Positions 36,029 through 40,796 of a DNA stretch of 64,000 nucleotides are shown in pieces (position 1 is the stretch's first letter; the number at the start of each line of letters is the position of its first letter). The stretch covers positions 1 through 64,000 of the forward strand of contig WRBA01000010.1 of the NCBI GenBank assembly GCA_009779915.1, in the 5' to 3' direction. Under the pieces are notes generated by a model. The model was not told the origin of the DNA, made no database searches, and was given only the letters and a program-made list of their open reading frames with translations. This DNA comes from Defluviitaleaceae bacterium. Lineage in GTDB: Bacteria; Bacillota; Clostridia; Lachnospirales; UBA5962. Position numbers and translations under genes: made by a program.

Positions 36029-36057
36029 TTGACATATACATAAATTACCTATATAAT
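36029..36057 (+). promoter_or_regulatory. Promoter of ylxM-ffh operon
   Basis: Perfect consensus TTGACA, 17-bp spacer, TATAAT. Confidence 0.85.
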
Positions 36058-36452: not shown

Positions 36453-37787
36453 GTGGCTTTTGAAAATCTTTCTAACAAATTACAGGATGTTTTTAAGCAG
36501 CTTAGGGGCAAGGGCAAGCTGTCGGAAAAAGATGTTAAAGATGCTATGCGTGAGGTGCGCCTTGCCCTTTTAGAGGCTGATGTTAATTTTAAAATTGTTA
36601 AAGAGTTTGTAAATAATGTTACGGAAAAAGCCATAGGCGCGGATGTGCTAAACAGCTTAACCCCCGGTCAGCAAATTATAAAAATAGTTAATGATGAACT
36701 TGTGGAGCTTATGGGTTCTACCAACAGCCAGCTTACTTACTCAAACAAGCCTCCTACAATCTTTATGATGGTAGGGCTTCAAGGCGCAGGTAAAACCACT
36801 ACAATCGGCAAGCTTGGAGGGCATATAAGAAAACAGGGCAGGCATCCTATGTTTGTGGCCTGTGATATTTACCGTCCTGCCGCTATAAAACAGCTTGAAG
36901 TGGTAGGTAAAACTTATAATATCCCTGTGTTTTCAATGGGCGATAAAGTAAGCCCTGTGGAAATTGCCCTTAAATCCATCGAAAACGCTAAAGAAAACAA
37001 TTTAGATGTAATTATAATAGACACTGCCGGCCGCCTTCATATAGATGAAGAACTTATGAATGAGCTTGAAGACATAAAAAAAGCCGTAAGACCTCAGGAG
37101 ATACTTCTAGTGGTTGATGCTATGACAGGGCAGGATGCGGTAAATGTTGCCGAAGGATTTAATGAACGTCTTGGCATTGACGGTATAGTTATGACTAAGC
37201 TTGACGGTGACTCCAGAGGGGGGGCTGCTCTTTCTGTTCGTAATGTAACCGGGCGCCCTATTAAATTTGTAGGTATGGGCGAAAAAATGGAGGATTTGGA
37301 AGCATTTCATCCTGACAGAATGGCGTCTCGTATACTTGGTATGGGGGATGTACTTAGCCTTATTGAAAAAGCTCAGGCAAACTTTGACGAGGAAGAGGCT
37401 AAGGCATTAGAAGCCAAAATGCGTACCATGGATTTTAATCTGGAGGACTTTTATTCTCAGCTTCAGCAGGTTAAAAAAATGGGACCGCTTAAAAATATAC
37501 TGGGCATGATTCCGGGCATAGGCAGCCAACTTGATAATGTGGATATAGATGATAAAGCAATGGTTCATATTGAGGCAATAATACAGTCCATGACACCTCA
37601 TGAAAGAAGAAATCCGGATGTGTTAAACGGCTCGAGGAAAAAGCGTATAGCGGGGGGGTCAGGCCGCACCGTACAGGAGATAAACAGCCTTCTTAAACGC
37701 TTTGAAGAAATGAAAAAAATGATGAAACAGATGCAGAATATGTCGAGGGGCAAGAAAGGTAAGATGAATCTACCTTTCCTTAAATAG
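36453..37787 (+). CDS. ffh: Signal recognition particle protein Ffh
   Basis: 444 residues from a GTG with GAGGAGG upstream. N domain (1-85), G domain with [42 protein letters not shown], and a methionine-rich M domain (about 300-440) that binds 4.5S RNA and signal peptides. It targets nascent membrane proteins to FtsY at the membrane. No SRP RNA gene is seen in this window. Confidence 0.96.
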
Positions 37788-37831
37788 ATTATAACCCTAA
37801 TAAAATAATGAACCAGGAGGTGAAAAGAGCA

Positions 37832-38071
37832 ATGGTAAAAATCAGACTTAAAAGAATGGGTGCTAAAAAAGCTCCGTATTATAGAGTGGTTGTAGCTGAC
37901 TCAAGAGGTCCGCGTGACGGCAAAAGTATTGATGAAATCGGTCATTATGACCCAACAAAAAATCCGGCTGATGTAGCGATTGATGTTGAAAAAGCCAAAA
38001 AATGGATATCAAACGGCGCGCAGCCTACTGATACAGTAAGGGCACTCCTTAAAAAAGCGGGTGCGCTTTAG
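37832..38071 (+). CDS. rpsP: 30S ribosomal protein S16
   Basis: 79 residues from ATG 37832 after AGGAGGTGA; the frame extends eight codons upstream through the ribosome binding site, which is not coding. Motifs [17 protein letters not shown] and GHYDPTKNP are diagnostic. It precedes khpA-rimM-trmD in most Firmicutes, but here a lipoprotein gene intervenes. Confidence 0.95.
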
Positions 38072-38072
38072 G

Positions 38073-38121
38073 GCAGGCAGGCTTCTGGCTGAAGCCGGAA
38101 CCGGCTCTGTGAGCTGTCTGC
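38073..38121. repeat. Multi-hairpin insert after rpsP
   Basis: Outer stem GCAGGCAG / CTGTCTGC (7 of 8 pairs) closes a junction of three small hairpins (GGCTTC/GAAGCC, CCGG/CCGG, GCTC/GAGC). It starts two bases after the rpsP stop codon. It is not followed by a T-run. Confidence 0.5.
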
Positions 38122-38147
38122 TAATGCGGGTTTGAAAGTGGTGGGTA

Positions 38148-39278
38148 ATGAAAGCGGGAAATGCTTTTATATCGATTTTTCTTGTTGTTTTACTTATCCT
38201 TGGTATGCTTGCAGGGTGCGGAGGGGCTATGGAAACTCTTTCCGGACCTGCAGCGATTATAGTCCCGGTTTCTGAGCCTGGGTTAAACCGCGAAGAGCTG
38301 CTTTCTATACTTCACCAACGTATGGAGGAGTTTTTTGTCCAAAGGGGTGGTTTTTCAGGAGTGGTGCTTGCTATGCAAGGAGGCGAAGTGATACTTAGCG
38401 AAACTTTTGGCATGGCAAACCCTGATTTGGGGACTTATAACACCCTTGATACGCCATTTACTATCGGATTTATCACCCAAATATTTACCGGCGCGGCTGT
38501 TTTGATGCTGGAAATGGAGGGTAAGCTGGATACAACAGATACTCTTGATAATTTCTTTTCAGGTCACAACAGGTTAAGTGATATTACAGTGGCGGATTTA
38601 CTTGCCATGGACGGTGGTTTTGGCGGATCGACCCCTCTTGCATCTGTTTTTATATCCGAACCTGATGAAATAAGGGAAATGACTCCGCTGGAGCTTGAAC
38701 CTTATGTTATATCGCGCCTAAACTGGCAAGAAGCTGTGCCTAACAATTTGGATTATTGGGTTTTAGGGCGCATTATTGAGCAGGTATCAGGTATTAGTTA
38801 TGAAGAGTTCATAAAAACAAGGATATTTGACCATTTGGGTATGGAAAATTCCGGAGTTGCGGATATACATGGGGTGGCAGCACCTCTTGGTATTCCTATA
38901 CGGTTTTTTGAGGCATATTCAAATATAATGAATTCTGGGGCTTTTCCGTTTTTTTTGTATTATTCTTCAAGTGGTCTTATGTCAAGTGCCAATGACTTAA
39001 ATATTTATTTGGATGCTTTTTTTGGCGGTGAGCTGTTTCCTGAGTATATGTTGGAGCAAATCCAAAAAGGAGACTATAATTACGGCTGGATATTTCATGA
39101 GAGCGGTGGGTGGTATATGTTAGGGCAGTCTTTTGGCAGCTCTGTCATTATATATCATCCTAAAAACAATACGAGTATTATTGTATTGTCAAATCTTTTT
39201 ACAGGTAATAGGGAAGCTGAGATTTTAGGCAGTTTAATGGCTGAAATACTAATCGGCACTCCAATTTTTTTTAACTAA
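38148..39278 (+). CDS. Serine-hydrolase/beta-lactamase fold lipoprotein without catalytic residues
   Basis: 376 residues with a signal peptide and lipobox (LAGC, Cys near 24). The body aligns in pattern to class C beta-lactamase/serine hydrolase proteins (FTIGFITQIFTGAAVLMLEMEG, then YWVLGRIIEQVSG and IFDHLGMENSG). The SxxK motif reads FITQ: Ser is replaced by Phe and Lys by Gln. The YxN motif reads VPN, and the C-terminal HxG is not recognisable (GQSFGSS). The enzyme is therefore predicted inactive, perhaps a binding protein for peptidoglycan or peptides. It interrupts the rpsP-khpA gene pair. The frame is intact and codon use normal, so it is not a pseudogene by decay. Confidence 0.8.
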   Translation: MKAGNAFISIFLVVLLILGMLAGCGGAMETLSGPAAIIVPVSEPGLNREELLSILHQRMEEFFVQRGGFSGVVLAMQGGEVILSETFGMANPDLGTYNTLDTPFTIGFITQIFTGAAVLMLEMEGKLDTTDTLDNFFSGHNRLSDITVADLLAMDGGFGGSTPLASVFISEPDEIREMTPLELEPYVISRLNWQEAVPNNLDYWVLGRIIEQVSGISYEEFIKTRIFDHLGMENSGVADIHGVAAPLGIPIRFFEAYSNIMNSGAFPFFLYYSSSGLMSSANDLNIYLDAFFGGELFPEYMLEQIQKGDYNYGWIFHESGGWYMLGQSFGSSVIIYHPKNNTSIIVLSNLFTGNREAEILGSLMAEILIGTPIFFN

Positions 39279-39319
39279 ACACGATATTTTACCTTTCTCA
39301 GAAAGGAATGGTTTTAATT

Positions 39320-39550
39320 ATGAAAGAATTACTTGAACTTATTGCCAAAAACCTTGTGGACAACCCTGACGCGGTTGTTGTAACAGAAACCGAAAACGAC
39401 CGCGGCACTATTTTAGAGCTTCGCGTGGCGGCAGAGGATATGGGCAAGGTAATAGGCAAACAAGGCAGAATAGCAAAAGCTATAAGAACCGTTATAAAAG
39501 CGGGGGCAATCCATAATGATAAAAGAGTAACTGTTGAGATTATACAGTAG
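39320..39550 (+). CDS. khpA: KH-domain RNA-binding protein KhpA
   Basis: 76 residues from ATG 39320, giving the usual MKELLELIAKNLVDNPDAV start. The GxxG loop of the KH domain is in VIGKQGRIAKAIR. KhpA pairs with KhpB/Jag to bind RNAs linked to cell elongation and division. AAAGGA is 12 bases upstream, rather far; an ATG at 39308 would touch the site and is rejected. Confidence 0.93.
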   Translation: MKELLELIAKNLVDNPDAVVVTETENDRGTILELRVAAEDMGKVIGKQGRIAKAIRTVIKAGAIHNDKRVTVEIIQ

Positions 39551-39556
39551 CATGAG

Positions 39557-39580
39557 TCCGCCCTTAGGGCGGGCTTATGT
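39557..39580 (+). terminator. Terminator/attenuator between khpA and rimM
   Basis: CCGCCC-tta-GGGCGG followed by GCTTATGTTTTAT. Likely partial, since rimM and trmD usually belong to the same operon. Confidence 0.65.
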
Positions 39581-39630
39581 TTTATAAGGGTTAAGGTAAA
39601 AAATGTCTTAATTCACTATATGGAGGCAAT

Positions 39631-40128
39631 ATGAGGTACTTTGATGTAGGTAAAATAGTAAACACTCACGGGATAAGAGGGCTTGTTAAGGTTGTATCCC
39701 AATCTGATGACCCGGATAAATTCTTCAAGCTTAAATCAGTTATCATTGATGGAAAAGATGTTGAGGTAGAGCAGGCTTCTACCAACAAGCAGTTTGTACT
39801 CCTTAAATTAAAAGGCATCGATGATATGAACGCCGCTGAGGCACTTAAAGGAAAAACCCTTAAAGTACCCGAATCGGATGCCTTAAAACTTGCCGAAGGT
39901 GAATACTTTATCAGAGATATATATGATATGGAAGTTTATGAGGAAAATGGGGAGTTTTTAGGTACAATTGATGATATAATATTTACAGGTGCTAATGATG
40001 TGTATGTAGTTAAAAAAGAGGGCACTAAAGATTTGCTTATCCCGGCTATAAAAAGCTGTATTTTAAATGTTAATATGCCTGAAAAACGTATGACAGTCTA
40101 TTTATTGGAAGGGCTTAGAGACTTATGA
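39631..40128 (+). CDS. rimM: Ribosome maturation factor RimM
   Basis: 165 residues. N-terminal beta-barrel domain starting FDVGKIVNTHGIRGLVKV and C-terminal PRC-barrel (GEYFIRDIYDMEVY, then VYVVKKEGTKDLLIPA). Assists 30S 3' domain assembly around S19. The stop overlaps the trmD start (ATGA). Confidence 0.95.
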   Translation: MRYFDVGKIVNTHGIRGLVKVVSQSDDPDKFFKLKSVIIDGKDVEVEQASTNKQFVLLKLKGIDDMNAAEALKGKTLKVPESDALKLAEGEYFIRDIYDMEVYEENGEFLGTIDDIIFTGANDVYVVKKEGTKDLLIPAIKSCILNVNMPEKRMTVYLLEGLRDL

Positions 40129-40796
40129 GATTTTATGTACTTACCCTTTTTCCACAGGTTCTTCATGGGGCTTTGGATCATAGTATAACAAAAAGAGCCC
40201 AGGAGCAGGGGCTTGTAAGTATAAATTGTATTGATATACGAGACTTTTCAGGGAATAAGCATAGGAGAGTTGACGATTATCCATATGGCGGCGGAGCAGG
40301 GCTTGTTATGCGCCCTGAGCCTGTTTATGACTCCTATATGTCCATAAAAGATAGATTAAAGCCCTCCGCAAAGGTAGTGTTTTTGACCCCTTCCGGGCGC
40401 AAATTCTCTCAAAAGGAGGCGGAAGAGTTTGCTAAAGAGGATGACTTAGTCCTAATTTGCGGGCATTATGAAGGTATAGACCAACGGGTGATTGATGAGA
40501 TTGTAACAGATGAAATATCAATAGGCGATTATATATTAACCGGCGGTGAAATTGCCGCAATTGTGCTTATTGACGCGGTTTCAAGACTTATACCCGGCGT
40601 TTTAGGGGCGGATGAATCTCTTGCTTTTGAAAGCTTTACGGATAACCTTTTGGAATACCCACAATATACACGCCCACAGGAGTTTAGGGGTCGTGCCGTG
40701 CCGGAGGTTCTTCTAAGCGGCAACCATAAGGAAATTGAAAAGTGGAGACACGAGAGGGCTTTGGAGATAACGAAGCTTAAGCGACCGGATTTGTAA
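40125..40796 (+). CDS. trmD: tRNA (guanine(37)-N1)-methyltransferase
   Basis: 223 residues, SPOUT/trefoil-knot methyltransferase. Motifs: FPQVLHGALDHSITKRA, DDYPYGGGAGLVMRPEP, ICGHYEGIDQRV and the knot IGDYILTGGEIAA. It prevents +1 frameshifting by modifying G37. It is slightly shorter than many homologues at the C-terminus, where its stop codon coincides with the first bases of an inverted-repeat element. Confidence 0.95.
   Translation: MRFYVLTLFPQVLHGALDHSITKRAQEQGLVSINCIDIRDFSGNKHRRVDDYPYGGGAGLVMRPEPVYDSYMSIKDRLKPSAKVVFLTPSGRKFSQKEAEEFAKEDDLVLICGHYEGIDQRVIDEIVTDEISIGDYILTGGEIAAIVLIDAVSRLIPGVLGADESLAFESFTDNLLEYPQYTRPQEFRGRAVPEVLLSGNHKEIEKWRHERALEITKLKRPDL

Follow-up and report, generated by a model that had tools for sequence, protein, structure and literature searches.

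The genes for ribosomal protein S16 (rpsP) and the KH domain RNA-binding protein KhpA (khpA) are nearly always adjacent in the order to which this DNA belongs. In the window (the whole 64,000-nucleotide stretch analyzed here), they are separated by a gene for a serine-hydrolase-like protein that lacks its catalytic residues (Table 1), which raises the question of how such a gene came to lie there, whether it is maintained, and what its product might do. The reading that we consider rather probable is that it encodes a surface-anchored S12-type pseudoenzyme, inserted between rpsP and khpA, kept for binding and expressed by read-through.

Table 1. Coordinates of features at and around the rpsP-khpA interval (positions in the window).
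Feature	Position	Strand	Remarks
Promoter-like site, TTGACA-17-TATAAT	36029..36057	+	12 of 12 sigma-70 consensus; upstream of 107-aa ORF and ffh
ffh (SRP54)	36453..37787	+	Upstream, same strand as ORF
rpsP (ribosomal protein S16)	37838..38071	+	Profile match
Single copy of 60-bp dispersed palindromic repeat	38075..38131	+	Diverged (81% identical)
ORF, putative PF00144 lipoprotein pseudoenzyme (serine beta-lactamase/R61 DD-peptidase-like, MEROPS S12)	38148..39278	+	376 aa
Predicted signal peptide with lipobox L-A-G-C24	38148..38219	+	By eye
S-x-x-K position, F108-I-T-Q111	38469..38480	+	Codons TTT ... CAA; alignment
Y-x-N position, P198-N-N200	38739..38747	+	CCT AAC AAT; alignment
H-x-G position, M324-L-G326	39117..39125	+	Alignment
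khpA (KH_KhpA-B, KH domain RNA-binding protein)	39323..39550	+	Earlier in-frame ATG at 39308
Strong 15-bp hairpin at khpA stop	39549..39581	+	39540-39630, z -4.6

Family assignment, export signal and catalytic site

The reading frame is unbroken over 376 codons. A profile search matched residues 60-367 of the protein to positions 5-327 of the 329 in PF00144 (E 2.7e-26, 93 bits; curated cut-off, 27 bits), a whole-domain score that places it in the S12 family. The best match among solved structures was Pab87 (2QMI; 2.7e-16 with the single sequence, 1.4e-21 with a two-row profile). An AlphaFold2 model built from the single sequence had a mean pLDDT of 38.8 and a pTM of 0.24, too low for it to be used; from the profile match, the fold is predicted to be of the S12/PF00144 type, and the case for its integrity rests on that match. 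Read by eye, the N terminus (MKAGNAFISIFLVVLLILGMLAGC) shows the n-region, hydrophobic stretch and lipobox with Cys of a bacterial lipoprotein, Cys24 being the sole cysteine in the protein, and export as a lipoprotein is most likely. PADLOC returned no match, and a defense-system role was rejected on that ground.

The active site of the superfamily is defined by three motifs, SxxK, [SY]x[NT] and [KH][ST]G (PMC2266909). In an alignment of 35 rows (the ORF and 34 homologs), the first position reads F108-I-T-Q111, the second P198-N-N200, and the third (variant H-x-G) M324-L-G326. Four catalytic residues are replaced (Ser108 to Phe, Lys111 to Gln, Tyr198 to Pro and His324 to Met), with Asn200 and Gly326 retained; S-x-x-K and the Tyr are kept in all 34 homologs. 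The four codons lie 1, 1, 2 and 3 nucleotide steps from those for Ser, Lys, Tyr and His, respectively, so that at least seven nucleotide changes are needed across them. A regular-expression search of the whole protein found no S..K, which excludes a displaced Ser-Lys pair at the sequence level, and returned one Y.N (257) and one H.G (229), both unaligned. A preliminary description of this DNA had proposed a serine-hydrolase-family protein without its catalytic set, with an intact frame, a good lipobox and an SxxK that reads FITQ, all of which these results bear out. Its reading of YxN as VPN was right about the lost Tyr but one residue off in placement, the Asn being kept, and its missing HxG applies to the His but not to the Gly.

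Comparison with PF00144/MEROPS S12 hydrolases (Streptomyces R61 DD-peptidase, Pab87 2QMI, alkaline D-peptidase 4Y7P, Flp 4GDN, FmtA 5ZH8 and ClbP) shows a shared full-domain profile match, a signal peptide and conserved non-catalytic positions (glycines, T147, E211, D283 and N349), whereas the four catalytic side chains are all replaced in the ORF. The Phe, Pro and Met replacements point to a cleft that is filled, not one that traps substrate. Binding of penicillin or a stem peptide is doubtful, since the nucleophile has given way to Phe and the expected pocket would be lined by Pro and Met. An enzyme with re-invented chemistry, in which the cleft draws its nucleophile or base from Thr110, His140, Asp202 or a Ser at a different place, would be in keeping with the retention of cleft elements (N200, D202, Y203, G326 and E211) and of clade-specific residues common to an active relative (see below). 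We nonetheless regard it as quite unlikely: the nucleophile, the base, the Tyr and the His have each given way to another residue, in some cases a bulky or rigid one, S-x-x-K occurs nowhere in the protein, and H140 and D202 are also found in the active relative, so no new role is needed to account for them.

Relatives of the ORF and the rpsP-khpA interval

The nearest relative (44% identity) is encoded by a genome from another family of the same order (G041, locus L008, 1420-2490). Its catalytic motifs are intact (SITK/YCN/HPG), it forms one branch with the ORF (100% support), and the two share the clade features LLAMxGGF and YNYGW. Unlike the ORF product, it has a hydrophobic N-terminal segment without a lipobox, and its gene sits between comF-like and sporulation sigma-factor-like genes, away from the rpsP-khpA pair, which is uninterrupted in G041. 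Searches of the family's six other genomes found no close ortholog; the best homologs there (in G003, 29-32% identity) have intact SxxK and YxN. No close relative beyond that in G041 was found in samples of the order, class and phylum (~390-400 genomes each), the best match outside it being in G435 (E 1.1e-43). A separate scan of genome contigs yielded a sole relative, at 25% identity. Scans of viral contigs yielded none, and a phage origin was rejected on that basis.

Among 146 genomes of the order, 132 had both domain matches listed on one contig, and in 131 of these rpsP and khpA lie no more than 214 nt apart (median 73). The sole exception is the genome carrying the ORF (1294 nt). Within the family, khpA directly follows rpsP in five of the six other genomes. 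Because the pair is adjacent in G041 and the other genomes, and no other close relative was found, the insertion is specific to this lineage and not shared by G041. The preliminary description had stated that the ORF splits a nearly always adjacent pair and had suggested surveying the interval in relatives; the interruption, present in 1 of 132 genomes, agrees with that statement. As a separate observation, in one family member (G005, 96% complete), a thiol-peroxidase-like gene stands after rpsP, where khpA would be expected (locus L045), and no KhpA/KhpB match was found in that genome.

The gap between rpsP and the ORF (76 nt) consists mostly of one copy of a 60-bp repeat, the unit of which contains three hairpins (z -2.5). 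About 38 full-length copies occur elsewhere in the genome (contigs C30, C34, C35, C45, C62 and others) at 93-100% identity. Tandem runs with a period of exactly 60 bp and positions at the ends of contigs are frequent among them, and the copies appear to be intergenic in the six loci inspected. The repeat is absent from the six family relatives, and the khpA side of the ORF has no reported copy. The gap copy may mark the insertion point. Enteric REP elements protect messages from the 3' side, and by analogy the repeat hairpins could protect the rpsP message. Two candidate explanations of the gap were rejected: a known RNA element, as Rfam returned no match for the copy and the gap is a dispersed repeat, and a REP-associated transposase as the source of the repeat, as no Y1_Tnp match was found in the genome.

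Maintenance versus decay

We considered alignment columns that are highly conserved (at least 90% or at least 80%) and kept by the active relative in G041. Twelve columns qualify at 90%, and the three lost by the ORF (S108, K111 and Y198) are exactly the catalytic ones, a single triple out of the 220 that could be drawn. When the threshold is lowered to 80%, the ORF lost 6 of 21 columns, including all four catalytic ones (hypergeometric 0.0025). The statistics on catalytic columns are partly conditioned on the reason for which the ORF was picked. The other nine columns conserved at 90% are all retained, and of the six invariant columns, S108, K111 and Y198 are lost, and three Gly are kept.

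Tajima relative-rate tests against eight outgroups gave ORF-unique to relative-unique counts of 30:30, 26:22, 25:20, 36:27, 26:22, 22:29, 24:26 and 24:21 (P > 0.25 in all eight), with no significant excess on the ORF side, the test being an average over the periods before and after the loss, such that, for a very recent loss, equal rates would mostly reflect the time preceding it. Maximum-likelihood branch lengths were 0.81 for the ORF and 0.79 for the G041 relative. Codon-position GC (0.495/0.378/0.356) resembles that of neighboring genes, and codon bias is the same as in the adjoining genes.

These results bear on the alternative that the gene was recently inactivated and is in early neutral decay, with its frame open only through too little time. 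The dead catalytic site is known from one sequence, with no congener among the genomes searched to show maintenance, and in simulations of a neutrally evolving ORF, 46-18% of runs were still free of stops at 2-5% divergence. Set against this are the number of nucleotide changes in the four catalytic codons, the retention of the other nine highly conserved positions, the unaccelerated rate and the native codon usage. The adjoining repeat copy, moreover, is 19% from its consensus, and at 15-20% neutral divergence the frame stayed intact in fewer than 1% of simulated runs; if copy and insertion are of the same age, the ORF would have resided there for long. We judge early decay to be unlikely. 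The ORF combines catalytic loss, retention of fold-bearing positions and absence of acceleration, as a maintained pseudoenzyme would. Because its rate is not accelerated, and the other nine positions are kept, the sequence evidence suggests a constrained, lineage-specific S12-type pseudoenzyme rather than a decaying gene. The earlier impression of a maintained gene is upheld in this respect, signs of neutral decay being absent from the relative-rate test, column retention and codon statistics.

Mode of action and expression

Under the favored reading of a maintained pseudoenzyme, this lineage alone would have acquired a single PF00144 serine hydrolase gene, by insertion into the rpsP-khpA interval; the nucleophile, general base, Tyr and His would have been lost before or after insertion, and the gene kept. 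The exported protein would work by binding rather than catalysis. In the role of scaffold or regulator, it would contact a protein or polymer of the cell envelope through surfaces still common to it and the active relative, with the pocket probably closed by Phe108, Pro198 and Met324. Degenerate LytM/M23 factors (EnvC, ActS and DipM) are regulators with demonstrated amidase or autolysin partners (PMC8360153, PMC10336132). If the favored explanation holds, the ORF product would resemble them as a non-catalytic regulator with a peptidoglycan-enzyme fold, but the likeness is in working mode only, as fold and family are unrelated. In a limited search of the open-access literature, no S12/PF00144-fold pseudoenzyme was found described, and the degenerate cell-wall regulators found were of the LytM/M23 type. 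An inactive member with no higher evolutionary rate than its active sister would offer a compact way of testing whether a fold that recognizes penicillin can be put to new use in binding, and the locus could also test how genes become lodged in conserved ribosomal operons.

The preliminary description had gone further and proposed a link between envelope state and translation through KhpA. In such a link, KhpA/KhpB or ribosome assembly would receive information on the envelope from the lipoprotein, and its position in the operon would be selected for this. KhpA and EloR/KhpB control cell elongation in Streptococcus pneumoniae (PMC6403258), and a second KH_KhpA-B match in the genome means that a KhpB-like partner may exist. 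The ORF and its neighbors also lie on the same strand with short gaps and no obvious terminator between them. However, it is not evident how a lipoprotein on the outer side of the membrane could reach KhpA in the cytoplasm. Of the 132 genomes, one has this arrangement, the nearest relative is catalytically intact and not near khpA, and the samples from the order, the class and the phylum yielded no further close relative. With no conserved association, the proposal is not supported, and we hold a selected functional link to be very unlikely. The related idea that a surface pseudoenzyme was captured into a ribosomal-protein/KhpA transcript and couples envelope state to KhpA-dependent RNA growth control appears highly improbable. 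In the open-access literature, we found no paper joining KhpA, rpsP and the operon. It is more likely that the locus is an expression niche than an envelope-translation link, and the position beside khpA would then reflect expression rather than a regulatory circuit.

Co-transcription of the ORF with rpsP and khpA is likely from the sequence. A perfect promoter-like site lies upstream of ffh and of the 107-aa ORF that precedes it, which we take from its position to be ylxM-like. In a scan whose promoter-like sites were no more numerous than in shuffled sequence, none was found on the plus strand at 36618-40509, and no convincing T-run terminator was found between rpsP and khpA. Read-through from the ffh-rpsP unit probably accounts for transcription of the ORF and would tie its expression to growth. 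The hairpin at the khpA stop is a probable transcript end or processing site. The interval between khpA and rimM, for which Rfam returned no match, holds two strong consecutive hairpins (39549-39614).
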